NCBI GenBank assembly: GCA_902773995.1 | Contig: CACYGL010000017.1 | Location: 1-64,000 of the forward strand | DNA: 64,000 nt | Origin: an uncultured Coriobacteriaceae bacterium | Lineage (GTDB): Bacteria; Actinomycetota; Coriobacteriia; Coriobacteriales; Atopobiaceae | Direction of reading: 5' to 3' | Shown here: one piece after another, positions 18,149-33,389 of the stretch | Layout: each line of letters starts with the position of its first letter | Position numbering within the stretch: the first letter of the stretch is position 1 | Notes under the pieces: generated by a model | What the model saw: the letters and a program-made list of their open reading frames with translations, nothing else | What the model was told of the DNA's origin: nothing | Database searches by the model: none | Program-made: the position numbers and the translations under genes

Positions 18149-18832
18149 ATGGGAAACAAGAAGGATGTGGACATCTACCCCTCGGTAATGTGCTGCAAGC
18201 CGTGGGACCTTGAGGCCTACGTGCGCGCCTTCGAGGAGGCGGGTGTTGCCGGGATTCACTTTGATGTGATGGATGGGCATTACGTGCCAAACATCATGCT
18301 CGGCTCGGAAGACTTCAAGGCAATCCGACAGCTTACGGACCTCTCGATTGATGTCCACATCATGGCTACCGAGCCAGAGCGCTTTGTCCCGTATTTCGAC
18401 CTCCGCAAGGGAGACTCGCTGAGCTTCCATCCCGAGGTTTCCCTCCAGCCGTATCGTCTGCTCGAGAGCCTTCGGGCCATGGGCGTTTCCGCGGGCCTTG
18501 CCCTAAGTCCGGGCGTGCCGGTGAGCTATCTGGAGGAATGCCTCGACGTTCTCGATTTTGTCATGGTCATGGCTGTGAGTCCGGGATTTGCCGGTCAGAA
18601 GATGGTTCCCGACCATCTTGACAAGCTGCGCAGGATTTCCGAGATAACCTCTCGAGCAAAGCACCCGATAAGCATTGTGGTAGACGGCAACACGACGCCT
18701 TCGAATGCCAGGCACATGCATGAGGCAGGTGCCACGGGGTTTGTGGTTGGTACCTCCTCGCTCATTCAGGGTGGTCCTAGCGCATTTTCAGAGAAGTACA
18801 GGGCCTACCAGGCCGAGATTGTACGAGCGTAG
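18149..18832 (+). CDS. Ribulose-phosphate 3-epimerase-family protein
   Basis: A 227-residue TIM-barrel epimerase. It has the family metal and catalytic landmarks: PSVMCC near the N-terminus, HFDVMDGHYVPN (about 37-48), SFHPE, MAVSPGFAGQKM (about 144-155) and VVDGNTTPSN with the catalytic Asp. The family interconverts pentulose or hexulose phosphates at C3. Its place in a PTS operon, rather than in pentose-phosphate genes, suggests a special substrate such as a hexulose-6-phosphate (AlsE-like). A second member lies at 27569. Confidence 0.88.
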   Translation: MGNKKDVDIYPSVMCCKPWDLEAYVRAFEEAGVAGIHFDVMDGHYVPNIMLGSEDFKAIRQLTDLSIDVHIMATEPERFVPYFDLRKGDSLSFHPEVSLQPYRLLESLRAMGVSAGLALSPGVPVSYLEECLDVLDFVMVMAVSPGFAGQKMVPDHLDKLRRISEITSRAKHPISIVVDGNTTPSNARHMHEAGATGFVVGTSSLIQGGPSAFSEKYRAYQAEIVRA

Positions 18833-26263: not shown

Positions 26264-26998
26264 TTATGCCCTCTGCAATACCGATACCAAAACGTATTTG
26301 TTTGCAGGCAGCCAGATATTACCCCACTCCGTCGACGTGTTGTCTTCGAGGTAGCAGACCTGATCGATGTTGAGCACGGGTGCGGATTCATCACACGCCA
26401 GTAACTCGCCGCGCAGTTTTCCAGCAATCCTTGCGCCATATCGGACTTTTGCATATCCAAGCTTCTTTCCGGATGCCTCCTCAATGGCGCCATATAGAGT
26501 TCTCTTGGAATAGTCAAACTTGTCGATACCGGGACAGGTCAGCATGTTGATGCGGCTCTCCATGTACAGCAGCGGGCCCTCTTCCGTTGAGCGAACACGC
26601 CTGAGATAGTAGATGGGAGAGTTAAGCGGTACGCCCAGGCGCTGTGAGCACACTTTATCTGCTGCAATTACCTCAGCTCCAACGACCTTGGTGGTAAAGT
26701 CAATACCTTGCATGCTCAATGATTCAGCAAACGAGAGAAGGCTATTTCCCGTCAAATGCTCGATGTTGGGCTTGATGACAAAGCTTCCTTTTCCTTTGAC
26801 TTTTGTTATAAGCCCCTCGTTCACTAGGAGCTGAATGCCCTTCTGAACCGTACCTCGGCTAATTCCAAATTGGAGCATAAATTGATGCTCGGAGGGGAGC
26901 CTTGTTCCCTCCGGCCATTCTTGCGAATAAACCTTATCTCGGATGTAGTCTGCAAGCTGAACGTGCAGCGAAGGGGCGGCATCTGAGGATTGATCCAT
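26264..26998 (-). CDS. GntR-family regulator with UTRA domain (third PTS locus)
   Basis: A 244-residue GntR/HutC regulator. The HTH (about 10-78) has LPSEHQFMLQFGISRGTVQKG and LITKVKGKGSFV; the UTRA domain has YLRRVRSTEEGPLLYMESRI and the C-terminal pattern around residues 215-240. It is divergent from the third PTS locus with a small membrane protein gene between, and is the likely repressor, binding the TTGACCAT-like sites near the epimerase and EIIA genes. The gene is AT-richer than most of the window. Confidence 0.9.
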   Translation of the reverse strand: MDQSSDAAPSLHVQLADYIRDKVYSQEWPEGTRLPSEHQFMLQFGISRGTVQKGIQLLVNEGLITKVKGKGSFVIKPNIEHLTGNSLLSFAESLSMQGIDFTTKVVGAEVIAADKVCSQRLGVPLNSPIYYLRRVRSTEEGPLLYMESRINMLTCPGIDKFDYSKRTLYGAIEEASGKKLGYAKVRYGARIAGKLRGELLACDESAPVLNIDQVCYLEDNTSTEWGNIWLPANKYVLVSVLQRA

Positions 26999-27078: not shown

Positions 27079-27465
27079 CTAAAACATCTCTGATATCGCC
27101 CATATTATAAGCGCCGCTCCTCCGACAAACAAAAGCAGGATAGTGAGGCCATTAATCCCCAGAAAAGTCGCATGAAATGCGTTGTAAAGACCGCGTTTCC
27201 ATGTCTCTCCAGGAAGGGTATTAATTCGCACAACAATAACGCATGCGCGGATGGCGTAGACAATTACGGCAATTCCAATTGCAATGCGTGCAACCCCCAA
27301 TACGAGGGTCTGCTGTGCGAAAGAACGAATGTCTATGTTGAGAATGCTCGGGAACACGTATGCAAGCAAAGCGATGATGAGAACCGAAAGGAATAGATAG
27401 CCAGAACCTCTCTGGATGTTCTTTCTCGATGTCTCGGGGTTCTGCTTAGTGCTTTTCGCGCTCAT
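27079..27465 (-). CDS. Small membrane protein, unknown function
   Basis: A 128-residue protein with three predicted membrane helices (about 23-42, 55-78 and 100-123) and a positively charged N-terminus. I recognise no family. It lies between the GntR regulator and the epimerase, on the regulator strand, and ends about 80 bases before it. A TTTCCTCCGCTT (ribosome site in reverse) precedes the start. It may be part of the regulator transcript or linked to the third PTS. AT-rich like its neighbours. Confidence 0.7.
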   Translation of the reverse strand: MSAKSTKQNPETSRKNIQRGSGYLFLSVLIIALLAYVFPSILNIDIRSFAQQTLVLGVARIAIGIAVIVYAIRACVIVVRINTLPGETWKRGLYNAFHATFLGINGLTILLLFVGGAALIIWAISEMF

Positions 27466-27568: not shown

Positions 27569-28249
27569 ATGGTGAAAATAGCTCCCTCACTGATGAATAT
27601 GAGCCTGCTCCAAGTTGAGCACGACCTGTGCGTGCTGGATCCAATAACAGATTTGTACCATGTTGACATCATTGATGGCCACTATGTTCCGAATATGTGT
27701 CTGACGCCCCACTTTATCGCCCAGATACGCCCTGTCACACCCAAGCCTATCGAGGCACATCTGTATGTAGATGGAATCGACAAAGAGTTTATTGATGTAT
27801 GTATTGATGCTGGTGCATCGCTGCTGACTCTTCCGGCGGATGGAGTTGGACGTTCGATCCACCGGTTCTGCGACCACATTCACAAGCGAGGCGCAAAGGT
27901 GGGCGCGTTTATTAATCCATCTGATCCCGTTGACATCGTTTCGTCTTACGCGGCAGAGCTTGACTCTCTCCTCGTGCTTTCCGTTGACCCGGGTTTTACT
28001 GGACAGAAGTTCATTGAGGGAACCTACGACAGGATTGTTGAGGCCAAGGCGTTGCGTGCTAAGGCTGGGGCTCATTACGAGATAGCAATTGACGGAGGAT
28101 GCAACGCGACGAACTATCGCCTGCTTATAGAGGCTGGGTGTGATGTCTTGAATCTTGGGCGCGGGCTCTTTGATAATGGCGATTCCCTCGAAGACTCGGT
28201 GCGTCGTACCTATGAAGAGATTAGGGCTGCTGCGCGTGAGTCAGCTTAG
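27569..28249 (+). CDS. Ribulose-phosphate 3-epimerase-family protein (third PTS locus)
   Basis: A 226-residue epimerase-fold protein with PSLMNM, YHVDIIDGHYVPN (about 31-43), SVDPGFTGQKF (about 138-148) and the catalytic AIDGGCNATNY. It differs clearly from the epimerase at 18149, so each locus has its own. It opens the third PTS operon after TTGGAGGA at a good distance. Probable role: C3 epimerisation of the imported sugar phosphate or a later ketose phosphate. Confidence 0.88.
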   Translation: MVKIAPSLMNMSLLQVEHDLCVLDPITDLYHVDIIDGHYVPNMCLTPHFIAQIRPVTPKPIEAHLYVDGIDKEFIDVCIDAGASLLTLPADGVGRSIHRFCDHIHKRGAKVGAFINPSDPVDIVSSYAAELDSLLVLSVDPGFTGQKFIEGTYDRIVEAKALRAKAGAHYEIAIDGGCNATNYRLLIEAGCDVLNLGRGLFDNGDSLEDSVRRTYEEIRAAARESA

Positions 28250-28410
28250 CCATCTGTTTCGAACTATTGACCATAAAAATGAAGTCAATCAATCCGTCTG
28301 CCTTTAATAACATACCGCTTGCCTTATTCAAAACATGACTACGAAATAATGGTCAAGAATACTGCCTGTAGCAATGGAGCTGATTGGATTCATTTGAGGG
28401 AGGTGTAGGA
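28250..28410. promoter_or_regulatory. Intergenic region before EIIA with candidate GntR sites
   Basis: About 160 AT-rich bases between the epimerase and EIIA. It contains ATTGACCATAAAAAT at 28266-28280 and the inverted TAATGGTCAA at 28347-28356, likely binding sites for the GntR regulator, so the PTS genes may have their own promoter. Confidence 0.4.
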
Positions 28411-28833
28411 ATGGTAGGAATCGTTGTGGCATCGCACGGATCGTTGGCGACTGGGATGCTCGATGCTCTTGAGTTGCTTAGTGGGGAGCAGAAGGCAATA
28501 CGGGCAATTGGGCTTCAGCGTGGAGATTCCCCTGACACATTCGTCGCCAAGGTCGAAGAGGCCATTAATGCTGTCGACGAAGGTGACGGGGTTCTGGCTT
28601 TGGTCGATTTGTTTGGTGGTACTCCCTCTAATGCTGTTGCCCAGCTGCTCGCGCGTGATGACCTGAATGCTGTGGCCGGGGTTAACTTGCCAATGCTGCT
28701 TTCGGTAGTATTCGCTCGTGACGAGATGGATCTCAAAGAGCTCACTGAGGAAGCAGTTCGCGCGAGCTGTAACAGCGTGGTCGACATCCGACACAAGCTG
28801 TTCGACACGAATGACGATGAAGAAGAATTTTGA
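28411..28833 (+). CDS. PTS mannose-family EIIA component
   Basis: 140 residues from the ATG preceded by GAGGGAGG. It begins MVGIVVASHGS, with H9 phosphorylated; LVDLFGGTPSNA and GVNLPMLLSV are conserved. The C-terminus ends in an acidic run. Its stop overlaps the region of the EIIB start. It is the cytoplasmic phosphate carrier of the third PTS. Confidence 0.92.
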   Translation: MVGIVVASHGSLATGMLDALELLSGEQKAIRAIGLQRGDSPDTFVAKVEEAINAVDEGDGVLALVDLFGGTPSNAVAQLLARDDLNAVAGVNLPMLLSVVFARDEMDLKELTEEAVRASCNSVVDIRHKLFDTNDDEEEF

Positions 28834-28849
28834 TGTGATTGGGGCTACT

Positions 28850-29344
28850 ATGCATGCAACTGGCATGGACAACGTTCTTCTAACGCGTGTTGATGACAGG
28901 CTGGTCCATGGTCAAGTCATGACGTCCTGGCAGAAGGCCACTGGCGCTAATAAATTTATGGTGGTCGATGACGAGGTCGCAGCCAACGACCTCATGAAAA
29001 CAGTGCTCAAGGGTGTCGTGCCTAGCAACGTAAAGCTTGGCGTGTTTACGGTTCAGAAGGCCGTGGATAGGTTGGTCAAAGGGTTTAAGCCTACTGACAA
29101 GGTAATCATGCTGGTTAAGACCCCGCTCACAATTCTTAGGCTTTCTGATGCGGGCATTGACTTTAATTCCCTCAACATTGGCGGCATGGGTATTAGCGGA
29201 AGCCGCAAGACCTTCTACCAGAATATTGCTTGCTCTGACGAAGAGGTCGACGCCATGCGCAAGCTTATTGATAGGGGCTGCAAAATCACCATTCAGATTG
29301 TTGCTGACGATCCCAAGAAGGATGTCGCAGAAATTCTGAAGTAG
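28850..29344 (+). CDS. PTS mannose-family EIIB component
   Basis: 164 residues from ATG 28850; GTG 28835 is possible and would couple it to the EIIA stop. It reads MHATGMDNVLLTRVDDRLVHG, with H20 as the phosphorylated residue, then VVDDEVAAND and LNIGGMGISGSRKTFYQN. It passes phosphate to the sugar at EIIC/EIID. EIIC follows after 43 bases. Confidence 0.9.
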   Translation: MHATGMDNVLLTRVDDRLVHGQVMTSWQKATGANKFMVVDDEVAANDLMKTVLKGVVPSNVKLGVFTVQKAVDRLVKGFKPTDKVIMLVKTPLTILRLSDAGIDFNSLNIGGMGISGSRKTFYQNIACSDEEVDAMRKLIDRGCKITIQIVADDPKKDVAEILK

Positions 29345-29387
29345 GTCTCATGGGTCTTTTTCGTTGAGAAGGTAGGTGCTTGTTTCT

Positions 29388-30236
29388 ATGCAAATCACCT
29401 TGTTGCAGGCATTTCTCGTTGGTGTTGTGTATTACATGGGCTTTGTCGGAACTCCATGGCTCATCGGTTGTCTGGGAAGCCTTTCCACGATTCAGAAGCC
29501 TTTGGTTGCAGGCGTACTTGTTGGTTTTATCCTCGGGGATCCGGTGCAGGGCTGCATCATCGGCGCTGCCGTCCAGATGCCCTTCATTGCCTACATCTTT
29601 GCGGGTGGTGCCCAGCCCAATGACCCTGGTCTTGCTGGTACTCTCGGTGTCGCGCTGGCGCTTGCAGCTAACCTTGAACCAGAGGCCGCAGTTGCGATTT
29701 CCGTTCCAATCGCCCTTGTTGGCACGATTGTTAACGTTATCCGCATGACGCTGGATGTTACGTTTGTTCACATGATTGACCGTGCTTGTGAAAAGGGGGA
29801 TATGAAGCAGGCGGTCTTCCTTCACATCGTCCCTCCGCAGATTCTTTGCTTTGTCCTCTGCGTTGTTCCCGTTACCCTTGGTTGTTACTTTGGCGTTGAT
29901 GCTGTCAATGGCATCATTCAGGTCATGCAGGGCCGTCCCCTCTACACGCTCGAGGTCATCGGCGGCATCCTTCCTGCACTCGGTATTGCAATGAACCTCC
30001 GTACGCTCGATCGTCCCGGTACCCTCATTTGGTTCGTGTTTGGCTTCATCCTCAGCGCGTATCTCGGCCTTGGCGCAATGCCCATCGCAATCATCGGCTT
30101 CGTCATCGCCTTCTTCTACGTTCAGCTCGAGACGAAGGCCGAGGAGGGACGCGGTGCGGCAGCTCCTCAGATTGCCGCAACTTCAGCGTCGACTTCCAGA
30201 GTTGCCTCTGATGACTCCGATGACGACTTTGAATAG
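29388..30236 (+). CDS. PTS mannose-family EIIC component
   Basis: 282 residues from ATG 29388 (GAGAAGGTAGG upstream). The intact N-terminus has the first helices and then GFILGDPVQGCIIGAAVQMPFIAYIFAGGAQP (key motif GDPVQGCIIGAAVQ), about 50 residues in. Several more helices follow and a charged, Ser/Ala-rich tail of about 35 residues. It forms the third PTS channel with EIID. Confidence 0.9.
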   Translation: MQITLLQAFLVGVVYYMGFVGTPWLIGCLGSLSTIQKPLVAGVLVGFILGDPVQGCIIGAAVQMPFIAYIFAGGAQPNDPGLAGTLGVALALAANLEPEAAVAISVPIALVGTIVNVIRMTLDVTFVHMIDRACEKGDMKQAVFLHIVPPQILCFVLCVVPVTLGCYFGVDAVNGIIQVMQGRPLYTLEVIGGILPALGIAMNLRTLDRPGTLIWFVFGFILSAYLGLGAMPIAIIGFVIAFFYVQLETKAEEGRGAAAPQIAATSASTSRVASDDSDDDFE

Positions 30237-30248
30237 GGGATGATAGTA

Positions 30249-31118
30249 ATGGCAGAAGAAACTAAGAACGTTGCAGCTATGCCCAATACCGAAGGTCATC
30301 ACCTCGACAAGCGCGATGTTTCCCGTGCGTGGTTCAAGTGGGTTTGCCTTTCTAACACGAACTATAACTACGAGCGTCTGATGGCATCTGCACTCCTTGC
30401 CTCCTTCTCTCACATTCCTGACAAGCTCTACCCTGGAGATGAGCAGAAGCGTATCGAGTTCATGAAGCGCCAGATGGAGTTCTACAATACAGAGCCCCAC
30501 TTTGGCTGCATCATCAACGGCCTGGCACTCTCAATGGAAGAGGAAATGGCTAACGGCTCTGCCGTGACTCCGGAGGCCATTACTGCAGTCAAGACTGGTC
30601 TCATGGGCCCGTTCGCAGGCATCGGCGACACGCTTTGGCAGGGCACGCTTACGCCCATTCTGCTCGCAGTGGCTATGCCCCTTGCAACGCAGGGCAACCT
30701 GCTCGGTCCCCTGCTCTACATCATCCTGATGTACGCCATCATGCTCTTCATCTCGCACTTTATGTTCTTTACCGGATACAACTCCGGTAAGGAGGGCATC
30801 GAATCCATGATGGCCTCTGGCTCCATCAAGCGACTGATTGCAACGGCTTCCACCATGGGTGCTATCGTCCTCGGCTGCCTCGCAAATAGCTATGTGACCT
30901 GCACTTCGTATCTGCAGATTCCCGTTGGCGAGGGCTATATTGACCTGCAGGCAACGCTCGACTCGATTCTCAAGGGTGGCGTGCCTCTCGCAATTACCCT
31001 GCTCACTTGGTACTTGCTCAAGAAGAAGAACATGAACTCTACAGTCGTTCTTCTTATCTTGGTTGCCATTGGCGTCGTACTCGGAGCAACCGGTCTCTTT
31101 GGCGGTACTGCTGCCTAG
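30249..31118 (+). CDS. PTS mannose-family EIID component
   Basis: About 289 residues (ATG 30240 also possible; GGGGA spacing favours 30249). Landmarks are NTNYNYERLMA, FYNTEPHFG, KTGLMGPFAGIGDTL and C-terminal helices ending GATGLFGGTAA. No large loop insertion. A hairpin follows at 31132. Confidence 0.92.
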   Translation: MAEETKNVAAMPNTEGHHLDKRDVSRAWFKWVCLSNTNYNYERLMASALLASFSHIPDKLYPGDEQKRIEFMKRQMEFYNTEPHFGCIINGLALSMEEEMANGSAVTPEAITAVKTGLMGPFAGIGDTLWQGTLTPILLAVAMPLATQGNLLGPLLYIILMYAIMLFISHFMFFTGYNSGKEGIESMMASGSIKRLIATASTMGAIVLGCLANSYVTCTSYLQIPVGEGYIDLQATLDSILKGGVPLAITLLTWYLLKKKNMNSTVVLLILVAIGVVLGATGLFGGTAA

Positions 31119-31131
31119 CGATTTTCATTGT

Positions 31132-31162
31132 GCCCGGCTTTGGAGAACGTCCAGAGCCGGGC
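31132..31162 (+). terminator. Hairpin between EIID and TIM-like gene
   Basis: Arms 31132-31144 and 31150-31162 (GCCCGGCTTTGGA type) pair over 13 bases with one G-U. No T-run follows, so it probably gives partial termination or mRNA stability while the enzymes downstream are still read. Confidence 0.5.
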
Positions 31163-31221
31163 GCTTGATCCCTAGAAGCACCAGAACACTGCTCAATTAT
31201 CTTTAGGACGGACATATCCTT

Positions 31222-31926
31222 ATGGAAAAAATTGTTCTCAAGCGACCGTTTTTCGTCGTAAACCCCAAGTCGTATCTGTACGGTGAGAAGCTTCGCAGGC
31301 TCGCGCGCAAGACGGATGAGCTCTGCGAGCGCTATGGCTTTCAGTCGCTGTTCACGGCACAGCTGATCGATCTTGCGTGGGTTGCCGACAATTGCCCGCA
31401 CCTCATTCCCTGCGCGCAGGCCATGGAGAGCCTCAAGCCTGGTCGTGGCATGGGTCACATTCTGCCGGAGGCTCTTGCCGCTGCCGGTGTGCGCGCCACG
31501 TTCCTCAACCACGCCGAGAACCCCATGACGGTGGGCGAGCTCGCCAAGACTATCGTGCGCGCTCGGGAGGTGGGCATCCTGACCTGTGTCTGCGCTGACT
31601 CCGTCGAGGAGGCCCGTGCCATCGCCGAGCTTCACCCGGACATCATGACCTGCGAGCTCAACAGCCTTATCGGCACTGGTCATATTGCCGGGGAGGACTA
31701 CATCCGCGCCTCCACCGAGGCCGTCAAGTCCGTCTCTCCCGAGACCATGGTGCTGCAGGCTGCCGGCATCTCCACGGGTCAGGATGTCTACGACGCCATC
31801 TACTACGGTGGTGACGCCACGGGCGGCACCTCCGGCATCGTCTGCGCCGAGGACCCCGAGGCGAAGCTCGAGGAGATGTTCGAGGCGCTCGATCGCGTCC
31901 GCTCCGACATCCAGAGGGAGGCCTAG
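31222..31926 (+). CDS. Triosephosphate isomerase-like protein
   Basis: A 234-residue TIM-barrel protein. It has TIM-like active-site landmarks in altered form: VVNPKSYLYGEK in place of NWKMN (Asn and Lys kept), FLNHAENPMT in place of the GHSERR loop (His kept) and CELNSLIGTGHIAG in place of the Glu loop. Such distant TpiA relatives occur in sugar operons, where some act on four-carbon ketose phosphates (EryH-type). It is probably not the main glycolytic TIM. YjbQ follows with 2 bases between. Confidence 0.8.
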   Translation: MEKIVLKRPFFVVNPKSYLYGEKLRRLARKTDELCERYGFQSLFTAQLIDLAWVADNCPHLIPCAQAMESLKPGRGMGHILPEALAAAGVRATFLNHAENPMTVGELAKTIVRAREVGILTCVCADSVEEARAIAELHPDIMTCELNSLIGTGHIAGEDYIRASTEAVKSVSPETMVLQAAGISTGQDVYDAIYYGGDATGGTSGIVCAEDPEAKLEEMFEALDRVRSDIQREA

Positions 31927-31928
31927 CC

Positions 31929-32450
31929 ATGACAGTGTACAAAGGGCTGGTGAAGGTCGAGACGCTCGCTGGCAAGCCGACCTACGTCGACGTCACCAAG
32001 GAGGTTGCGGACATCGTTGCCCAGAGCGGTATCAAGGAGGGGGTGGTCAGCTGCATCTCCTGCCACACGACCTGCGCAGTGTACTCTCAGGAGTTCGACC
32101 ATGACATGACCCCTGCGGGCGACACCTTCATGCAGGCGGACCTCTCCGACGGTCTGGACAGGGTCTTCCCTGAGCAGCACGATTGGAAGACTTACCGTTA
32201 CCCAGGCCTTCGCCACTTCGAGGAGGTCGAGAGCTGGCCTAACGCGGGGGCGTACCTCCCCGGCGGCGATCGCACTTTGCTCTGGAATGGGGATGCGCAC
32301 CTTCGCTCAGTCCTCGTGGGCAGCAGCCAGACCTTTGAGGTTGCCGACGGCAAGCTCGAGATGAATGGCCTTGCGAGCATCTTCTTCGTCGACTTCGACC
32401 GCACGCGCGAGCGTACCCGCAAGCTTCGCGTGGTGGTGATGGGGGAGTAA
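31929..32450 (+). CDS. YjbQ/UPF0047-family protein
   Basis: A 173-residue YjbQ-type protein, a little longer than the usual 130-140, with CISCHTTCAVYSQEFDHDM near the middle, where the family has a conserved His/Asn/Glu site. Family members show weak thiamine-phosphate-synthase activity, but the true role is unknown. It is tightly packed between the TIM-like and aldolase genes, suggesting it works in the same pathway; this placement is unusual. Confidence 0.82.
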   Translation: MTVYKGLVKVETLAGKPTYVDVTKEVADIVAQSGIKEGVVSCISCHTTCAVYSQEFDHDMTPAGDTFMQADLSDGLDRVFPEQHDWKTYRYPGLRHFEEVESWPNAGAYLPGGDRTLLWNGDAHLRSVLVGSSQTFEVADGKLEMNGLASIFFVDFDRTRERTRKLRVVVMGE

Positions 32451-32513
32451 CAAGGCCGCACGATGCCCATTCACGAAACGCAGTAGCCTTCAAATGAAAG
32501 CGAGACAATCAGT

Positions 32514-33389
32514 ATGCTTGTAAACCTTCAGGACATATGCGCTGTTGCCGAGCAGAACAACATGGCAATTGCGCAGTTTGATACCCCTAGCCTTGAGGCG
32601 TTGCGCGCAGCGCTAGACGCTGCCGAGGAGCTTGGGTACCCGGTTATGATTGCTCACGCCGAGGGCCACGAGCCATTTGTTCCCCTCGATGTCATTGGTC
32701 CGACAATGGTCCAGCTTGCCGAGAAGTCGAGCGCCATGGTTTGCGTGCACCTTGACCACTGCGAGAACCTCTCTTACATGAGACGCGCGCTTGAAATGGG
32801 CTTCACTGGCGCAATGTTCGACGGGTCGTATCTTCCGTATGAGAAGAATGTCGAGATGTCGCAATATGCTGCGCAGATGTGCGCAGAGTTCAATGCAGGA
32901 CTTGAGTGTGAGCTTGGGTCCATGGGCTCTCGTGAGGCTGGCGTCCGTCCCGAGGGCGGCACCGCAGAGGAGTCCGGTGCCATTTACACGAATCCGGGGC
33001 AGGCATCTGACTTTATCGCGAGCACGGGGCTTGATGCGCTTGCATGCTCCTTCGGTACCGTCCATGGTCTCTATAAGGGCGAACCCCACCTTAACTACGA
33101 CGTGCTCACAGAGATAAGGAAGAAGAACAAGATTCCTCTTGTTATGCATGGTGGCTCAGGCGTTTCGGACGAGGATTACGTCAAGTCGATCAATGCGGGT
33201 ATTCGTAAGATTAACTACTATACCTACGGCGTGGTTCGTGCCGGTGAGGCTGTTCGTACCATCGTCGACTCCTCCGCGGGCAAGCCAGTGTATTGGCATG
33301 ATATGACTATGGCTGCTTATGATGCCATGTACAACGACTTTAAGAAGACCATGATGGTGTTCGCCAACGGAGCAAAGCCCATCGCCTAA
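32514..33389 (+). CDS. Class II fructose/tagatose-bisphosphate aldolase-family protein
   Basis: A 291-residue zinc aldolase of the Fba/GatY/KbaY family. HLDHCEN gives the catalytic Asp (D81) and first zinc His (H82); ELGSMGSREAG, FGTVHGLYKG and VMHGGSGVSDEDY complete the metal and phosphate sites. It would cleave a ketose (bis)phosphate to triose phosphates. It closes the third PTS locus before a strong terminator. It could also serve the PfkB product from the first locus. Confidence 0.9.
   Translation: MLVNLQDICAVAEQNNMAIAQFDTPSLEALRAALDAAEELGYPVMIAHAEGHEPFVPLDVIGPTMVQLAEKSSAMVCVHLDHCENLSYMRRALEMGFTGAMFDGSYLPYEKNVEMSQYAAQMCAEFNAGLECELGSMGSREAGVRPEGGTAEESGAIYTNPGQASDFIASTGLDALACSFGTVHGLYKGEPHLNYDVLTEIRKKNKIPLVMHGGSGVSDEDYVKSINAGIRKINYYTYGVVRAGEAVRTIVDSSAGKPVYWHDMTMAAYDAMYNDFKKTMMVFANGAKPIA

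Follow-up and report, generated by a model that had tools for sequence, protein, structure and literature searches.

A conserved TIM-like–YjbQ cassette, often joined by a class II aldolase, and its possible place in ketose-phosphate metabolism

Gene content of the locus

The DNA analysed (hereafter the window) was a stretch of 64,000 nucleotides from an uncultured Coriobacteriaceae bacterium (Atopobiaceae; assembly GCA_902773995.1, contig CACYGL010000017.1, positions 1 to 64,000 of the forward strand). Positions 27569-33389 were found by family searches (Pfam and NCBIfam) to hold an operon-like run of genes on a single strand, encoding an epimerase of the ribulose-phosphate 3-epimerase (RPE) family, components IIA, IIB, IIC and IID of a mannose-type (Man-type) phosphotransferase system (PTS), a triose-phosphate isomerase-like (TIM-like) protein, the UPF0047 protein YjbQ and a class II aldolase (Table 1). 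The module to which the last three genes belong is real, conserved and unnamed in the literature searched: no description of a TIM-YjbQ-aldolase cassette was found in the titles and opening abstracts of the listed open-licence articles on YjbQ, UPF0047, its thiamine-phosphate synthase label, erythritol and erythrulose phosphates, or the galactitol PTS.

A first-pass annotation of the window had described this region as a third PTS locus combining a C3 epimerase, a TIM-like isomerase, YjbQ and a class II aldolase, and each part was confirmed by the family searches. The two other Man-type PTS clusters of the window lie near 2.3-5.5 kb and 15.8-19.4 kb. The ATG of the RPE-family gene is at position 27569 and the final base of the aldolase stop codon is at 33389. 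The IID and TIM-like genes are separated by 103 nt, the TIM-like and YjbQ genes by 2 nt and the YjbQ and aldolase genes by 63 nt. All four PTS components scored above their Pfam cut-offs, as did the epimerase (Ribul_P_3_epim). The highest NCBIfam score of the epimerase was obtained with D-allulose-6-phosphate 3-epimerase and was below the cut-off of that model, as was its score with the RPE equivalog TIGR01163 (155.5 against 212.6 bits). RpiB was absent from the locus in these searches; the second small enzyme there is YjbQ.

The host draft genome (2.2 Mb, 90.8% complete) has Olsenella strains as its closest named relatives. It encodes a single UPF0047 gene, the one at this locus, and an ordinary TIM (306 bits) on another contig. 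It also carries four RPE-family genes, four class II aldolases and three genes of the transaldolase/fructose-6-phosphate aldolase (FSA) family. One RPE-family gene (18149-18832) is located inside the second Man-type PTS cluster of the window, between IID and IIB.

Table 1. Features at and beside the locus, in window coordinates
Feature	Position	Strand	Basis
GntR/UTRA-family regulator, divergent	26264..26998	-	PF00392 and PF07702 over cut-off
Small predicted membrane protein, 128 aa, no family	27079..27465	-	No Pfam/NCBIfam match
RPE/AlsE-like ketose-phosphate 3-epimerase	27569..28249	+	PF00834 143.6 bits; PRK09722 217 bits (cut-off 271)
Man-type PTS IIA	28411..28833	+	PF03610 (EIIA-man)
Man-type PTS IIB	28865..29344	+	PF03830 (PTSIIB_sorb), searched as 28868-29344
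Man-type PTS IIC	29388..30236	+	PF03609 (EII-Sor)
Man-type PTS IID	30240..31118	+	PF03613 (EIID-AGA)
Archaeal-type TIM-like isomerase	31222..31926	+	PRK04302 over cut-off; residue census; fold model
Long-form UPF0047 (YjbQ), 173 aa, proposed sugar-phosphate isomerase	31929..32450	+	PF01894 85.8 bits; adjacency; model
Class II aldolase, P6-phosphate ligands replaced	32514..33389	+	PF01116 249 bits; motif census

Conservation of the gene pair and its variable neighbours

A set of 108 loci was assembled from genome searches, a species-genome scan (at least 504 relatives, 80 loci returned) and plasmids, and genes were counted by tblastn. Repeats (L041, L044-L046, L048-L051, L055, L185, L189, L192-L194, and L037 and L038, which repeat L067 and L068) were removed. 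Also outside the set are L191 (canonical TIM only), the broken copies L052 and L053, L066 (a weak match of a different family) and the short loci L001-L035. Five distinct loci outside the count (L036, L039, L040, L042, L043) all have the TIM-like gene followed by YjbQ.

Of the 108 loci, which are not de-replicated by relatedness and in which Atopobiaceae, Collinsella and Erysipelotrichaceae are heavily weighted, 103 had YjbQ within 7 kb of the TIM-like gene, and in 89 of them the two were within 250 bp. The class II aldolase gene was nearby in 82, and YjbQ and aldolase were both present in 79. Taken alone, the 80 loci of the scan gave YjbQ in 75 and aldolase in 72; with other seeds and a 6-kb limit the counts were 75/80 and 73/80. 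The TIM-YjbQ pair spans Coriobacteriia, Erysipelotrichia, Clostridia, Lactobacillales, Gilliamella and Shinella. Since the same run was found in independent genomes, it is not due to chance. The block is thus conserved elsewhere, and the idea that it would give YjbQ a context held, the linkage to the TIM-like gene being strong and specific.

The TIM-like protein itself was found in 16 of 60 genomes (the host and its relatives), in 16/396 genomes of the phylum, in 12/398 genomes sampled from the phylum of an Enterococcus genome, and in one of 274 genomes of the Gilliamella class sample, which was the Gilliamella genome itself. In the reverse search, UPF0047 was found at 29 places in 22 of the same 60 genomes, in two score groups: 17 long-form places at 79-94 bits and 12 places at 110-148 bits. 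A TIM-like gene adjoins 16 of the 17 long-form places and none of the 12 others. The exception, L236 (5073-8649), was read by eye as a galactitol-type (Gat-type) PTS operon with a long-form YjbQ, a KpsF-like and an RPE-like gene, and with neither a TIM-like nor an aldolase gene; its content points to YjbQ itself as a sugar-phosphate enzyme. A mirror-tree comparison of TIM-like and YjbQ proteins gave r 0.65 (the largest of 500 shuffles was 0.16), which is weak evidence only, because both proteins follow the species tree.

Five of the 108 loci had no YjbQ. In four of them (L086, L106, L113, L123) the contig ends less than 2 kb from the TIM-like gene, in one direction or both. The TIM-like genes of L116, the fifth, and L123 are 57% and 53% identical, respectively, with neither YjbQ nor aldolase nearby. 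L052 (G007 contig 17) is a broken copy: a divergent, 38% identical TIM-like gene that is interrupted by an in-frame stop and surrounded by genes for a kinase, an aldolase and a Gat-type PTS. Two YjbQ genes were seen in each of L099, L102 and L190.

PTS genes were found near 81 of the 108 loci: Gat-type in 69, Man-type in seven, Gut-type in five and fructose-type in three, a few loci being counted under two types. A C3 epimerase together with a Man-type PTS was found only in close relatives of the window. RPE was considered as a core part and rejected, as it was near the TIM-like gene in only 13/108 loci, seven of them in an aldolase-free clade described below. The conserved core is therefore the TIM-like gene and YjbQ, with the aldolase in most loci; of the gene set first proposed, the RPE and Man-type PTS genes are a local variant. 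The core is found as a closed set on the conjugative plasmids pLPCN-1 of L. paracasei and pQL50 of E. faecium, in the order PRD regulator-IIA-IIC-IIB-aldolase-TIM-YjbQ. Given these complete sets, a selectable trait probably requires no more than the three enzymes and central metabolism.

Other neighbours vary. In Sporolactobacillus YjbQ is followed by transaldolase and transketolase genes; both are also within the TIM-YjbQ cluster of Gilliamella. Loci with transaldolase and transketolase beside the pair are L121 and L193 (the same as L141). On Shinella megaplasmids the pair is accompanied by a short-chain dehydrogenase/reductase (SDR), an FGGY kinase and a TIM-barrel relative of IolO/psicose 3-epimerase, with a DhaK-DhaL gene 7 kb away. 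FGGY, SDR and TIM-barrel genes accompany the pair in L198 and L199. A DhaK-family gene precedes aldolase-TIM-YjbQ in L146, and DhaK is also present in L198. Degradation of autoinducer-2 by LsrK/LsrF-like enzymes was considered for the loci with FGGY and DhnA genes and set aside: DhnA-type genes were found in 2/108 loci and the LsrF model scored 114-115 bits, below its cut-off of 297. A NifS-type cysteine desulfurase gene lies within the PTS-aldolase-TIM-YjbQ loci L110, L118, L119, L120 and L122 (453 bits to NifS for the L110 copy), four of which also carry a UroD-like gene.

GntR genes adjoin TIM-YjbQ in many other Coriobacteriia loci, and homologues of the 128-residue membrane protein of the window were found beside RPE/GntR genes in L054, L067-L069 and L084. 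In most Coriobacteriia loci the Gat-type IIC is followed by a further protein of about 160-206 residues (c7mem; L036:5067-5687 and homologues), which had no NCBIfam match. This protein and the 128-residue one may be companions of the Gat-type and the Man-type PTS, respectively.

Features of the three proteins

The TIM-like protein scored 167 bits against PRK04302 (archaeal-type TIM; cut-off 132). It shares family, fold and catalytic residues with archaeal TIMs (1hg3, 1w0m, 2h6r): its model (pLDDT 92.5) matched 1hg3 with a Z score of 33.1 and 1.3 Å over 219 residues. Residues were compared with those of archaeal TIMs in 87 TIM-like sequences and in a second set of 103. The catalytic K16, H97 and E145 were kept in every sequence of both sets. 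The substrate pocket differs: where archaeal TIMs have S/A-H-T, the TIM-like proteins have R75 (81/87), G76 (87/87) and M77 (82/87); archaeal Leu is replaced by G201 (87/87 and 103/103) and archaeal Ala by T203 (84/87), within a motif T200-G201-x-T203. These replacements concern the loop-3 motif, the strand-8 Leu and the phosphate-loop residues of the archaeal pocket. Gly201 and Thr203 sit on the last strand, and Arg75-Gly76-Met77 belong to the loop which in TIMs extends into the site of the neighbouring subunit; the models of the TIM-like protein and of YjbQ are monomers. Met77 aligned with the conserved Thr of canonical TIMs in a profile alignment, and Gly201 was matched to the canonical strand-8 Leu by eye.

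The first-pass annotation had likened these altered loops to those of four-carbon sugar isomerases. The alteration of substrate-site residues stood, in a genome that encodes a normal TIM elsewhere; the likeness to the four-carbon isomerase EryH did not. Four TIMs from RpiB-paired loci were compared with two canonical TIMs. EryH departs from TIM at the same strand as the TIM-like protein but with other residues in its canonical-type sequence, Phe at the Gly201 position and Arg at a phosphate-loop position, against Gly and a TSG motif in the TIM-like protein, so the proposal that EryH shares the Gly201 change was wrong. The TIM-like model matched the Brucella erythrulose-1-phosphate isomerase (11ef) with a Z score of 23.8, no better than it matched ordinary TIMs. 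Judged from its sequence, the protein would keep TIM chemistry in a changed pocket, which does not settle between C4, C5 and C6 substrates.

The YjbQ of the window scored well above the PF01894 gathering threshold of 27 bits and just under that of TIGR00149 (63.5 against 67.75 bits; 87.0 for the Shinella homologue). Its model (pLDDT 90.7) has the YjbQ fold, with 1vph matched at a Z score of 19.1 and 1.8 Å over 137 residues. The operonic form shares Pfam family, fold and the invariant His46, His124 and acidic residues with the TIGR00149 proteins named 'secondary thiamine-phosphate synthase'. The solved UPF0047 chains are of 129-151 aa, whereas the operonic long form has an insertion and is of 164-178 aa. 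Cys49, present in 24/24 aligned sequences, was rejected as a mark of the operonic form, as HTTC also occurs in three of the other-type loci for which the motif was displayed (L213, L218 and L229; none was displayed for L212, L216 and L217). UPF0047 was present in 10 of 14 control genomes (bacteria and archaea), and at least nine structures of the family have been solved. The 'thiamine-phosphate synthase' label derives from a weak side activity, and to our knowledge the family has no accepted physiological role. Other-type UPF0047 genes (142-143 aa) were seen by eye in apparent sugar operons in L211, L212 and L213 (G035, G020 and G012), where their neighbours are an amidohydrolase-like gene and either a xylose-isomerase-like or an SIS-type gene. 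UPF0047 proteins may be sugar enzymes more widely.

The aldolase of the window belongs to F_bP_aldolase (PF01116) and, like FbaA and GatY/KbaY, has the metal-binding and catalytic motifs HLDH, ELG/EIG, VHG/AHG and HGGSG. In 70 aldolases, from the 80-locus set and the window, the usual Ser was replaced by Ala in 69, the neighbouring residue was His in 65, and the C-terminal DPR/DPK was missing in 69. We take this Ser and the DPR/DPK residue to be the ligands of the second phosphate (Ser61 and Arg331 of E. coli FbaA). They are present in FbaA and GatY/KbaY and replaced in the cassette aldolase, which suggests a substrate ketose with only one phosphate. This agrees with PTS uptake, which in the absence of a second kinase yields a monophosphate. 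A paralogue 61% identical to the cassette aldolase was seen on G000 contig 33 (L157:4358-5239), beside GntR and PTS-like genes and without TIM or YjbQ. Gene content, conservation, the catalytic residues, the altered pocket, the second, ordinary TIM and the loss of the P6 ligands are established.

Proposed pathway and comparison with known systems

We infer all reactions and the substrate in the following scheme. The sugar would enter through the Man-type PTS as a monophosphate, and the core of its breakdown would be a pair of isomerases. The TIM-like enzyme would accept a substrate that is longer than a triose and move its carbonyl by one carbon beside a phosphomethyl group (R-CHOH-CO-CH2OP <-> R-CO-CHOH-CH2OP), as EryH/LerI does on erythrulose 1-phosphate. 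YjbQ would then shift the carbonyl one step further from the phosphate, which is the RpiB (EryI/DerI) step of known tetritol loci. The class II aldolase would split or make a ketose 1-phosphate (dihydroxyacetone phosphate, DHAP, plus an unphosphorylated aldehyde), and RPE and the pentose-phosphate pathway would take the product at the other end.

That the genes form a non-triose sugar-phosphate module is likely. The part of YjbQ in it, as a sugar-phosphate isomerase or epimerase, is plausible and nearly balanced by doubt. The full scheme, a PTS-fed ketose-monophosphate pathway in which the TIM-like protein and YjbQ perform successive carbonyl shifts between the aldolase and the pentose-phosphate pathway, is proposed tentatively. 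A tetrulose would be the best fit by analogy for the aldolase-linked clade, and is unlikely as the specific substrate; the four-carbon idea is one of three live readings.

Several observations weigh against this scheme. The enzyme activities are predicted from sequence, and the pocket change does not by itself indicate C4, because EryH is without the Gly201 signature. An aldolase is odd in a tetrulose route, where it would make formaldehyde. Fold searches with YjbQ returned only other UPF0047 proteins of uncharacterised role, and nothing outside the family above a Z score of 4.9. YjbQ manages without a TIM-like partner in L236, and in L116, where no contig end is near, the TIM-like gene truly stands alone. 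The telling neighbours are scarce (transketolase 2, transaldolase 1 and DhaK 2 of 108 loci), and others are unexplained (AraD-family 22/108, UroD-like 5/108). Finally, a tree of 103 TIM-like proteins (the 108 loci minus the five without YjbQ) was split with support 0.998 into 86 with Asn14 (clade I, which includes the window) and 17 with Gly14 (clade II). Aldolase genes were near 79/86 clade I loci and 0/17 clade II loci; genes for isomerases of the KpsF/6-phospho-3-hexuloisomerase (PHI) type were near 2/86 and 9/17, and RPE near 6/86 and 7/17, respectively. The aldolase-free clade II, with its KpsF/PHI and RPE genes, is unexplained by a C4 route, and the PHI genes of L183, L184 and L186, which exceeded their cut-off (197-208 against 160 bits), point to C6.

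To judge from the partners of clade II, a carbonyl shift in the same two steps may be used on longer sugars as well. For pentuloses and hexuloses, the TIM-like protein would move the carbonyl from C2 to C3 and YjbQ from C3 to C4, with PHI/KpsF continuing for hexoses. A ketose 1-phosphate made by a PTS or a kinase would become a ketose 5- or 6-phosphate, RPE would link it to the pentose-phosphate pathway, and erasing the original stereochemistry would make 'wrong-handed' ketoses usable. Besides the clade II counts and the PHI scores, this is consistent with RPE above its cut-off in L186, a fructose-type PTS beside L183 and L186, and an arabinose-isomerase-like gene with an FGGY kinase in L190. 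It is nevertheless distinctly unlikely, since YjbQ must then act on 3-uloses and the aldolase of clade I becomes an alternative exit instead of a needed step. We know of no pathway of this kind.

More improbable is that the TIM-like protein is a second ordinary TIM for DHAP released by the aldolase, with YjbQ as an accessory (metabolite repair or mutarotase-like). The intact catalytic residues and the PRK04302 score agree with it, but G201 and G76 are fixed in 103/103 sequences, an ordinary TIM is encoded elsewhere in the genome, and no class II aldolase lies near any of the 17 clade II loci. Least credible is a natural formaldehyde cycle resembling the synthetic erythrulose monophosphate (EuMP) cycle, in which the aldolase would join formaldehyde to DHAP, the TIM-like protein and YjbQ would convert the erythrulose 1-phosphate to erythrose 4-phosphate, and transketolase and transaldolase would close the cycle: the gene set matches the three core steps of that cycle (PMC10733421), and the aldolases appear suited to an aldehyde without a phosphate, but the PTS in 81/108 loci points to an imported sugar and no enzyme supplying formaldehyde was noticed among the loci read.

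The PTS-fed ketose-monophosphate pathway is thus retained as the favoured reading. Its widest form is rather unlikely: UPF0047 would be a sugar-phosphate isomerase, the TIM-YjbQ relay would join ketose 1-phosphates (DHAP aldolases) to ketose 5/6-phosphates and aldose 4-phosphates (RPE, PHI/KpsF, transketolase), and the aldolase-linked form of PTS loci and plasmids would be the missing route by which a PTS feeds rare ketoses, tetruloses for example, into metabolism. The conserved three-enzyme cassette gives UPF0047 a defined candidate pathway and a short list of substrates, and points to an undescribed route of sugar breakdown across many gut and food bacteria. If so, many of these genomes probably contain genes wrongly named 'triose-phosphate isomerase' and 'fructose-bisphosphate aldolase'.

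Three loci that we take from their gene content to be tetritol loci were used for comparison. That of R. johnstonii (L204) has an FGGY kinase, a glycerol-3-phosphate dehydrogenase-like protein, a TIM-barrel protein, TIM and RpiB; that of Roseibium (L205) has TIM, RpiB, transketolase and class II fructose-bisphosphate aldolase; and that of Listeria innocua (L206) has DhaM, DhaK, DhaL, TIM, RpiB, an SDR, FSA and transketolase. Loci with EryH (TpiA2/LerI) and EryI (RpiB/DerI) have a TIM homologue beside a second small isomerase, as do the TIM-YjbQ loci, and the two kinds share FGGY/DhaK kinase, dehydrogenase, TIM-barrel epimerase, transketolase/transaldolase and class II aldolase neighbours. As the neighbour classes are the same and YjbQ sits in the place of RpiB, YjbQ may by analogy be the second isomerase. 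The tetritol loci have a canonical-type TIM with RpiB, whereas the cassette has an archaeal-type TIM with YjbQ and mostly PTS uptake; its minimal PTS sets are without a dehydrogenase, and its pocket residues are unlike those of EryH. According to PMC5992420, Brucella EryH and EryI are consecutive isomerases that convert tetrulose phosphate to erythrose 4-phosphate. A 2025 article on tetrose-eating bacteria (PMC12780249) describes a tetrose-specific PTS as unreported and still enigmatic, and the cassette is a candidate for it.

The synthetic EuMP cycle (PMC10733421) uses a DHAP aldolase, an erythrulose 1-phosphate isomerase and an erythrulose 4-phosphate isomerase to reach erythrose 4-phosphate. 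It is engineered, has an RpiB-type DerI and no PTS; its three core steps are matched by the gene content of the cassette. The same article asks for a study of whether an erythrulose-1-phosphate aldolase and these isomerases occur together.

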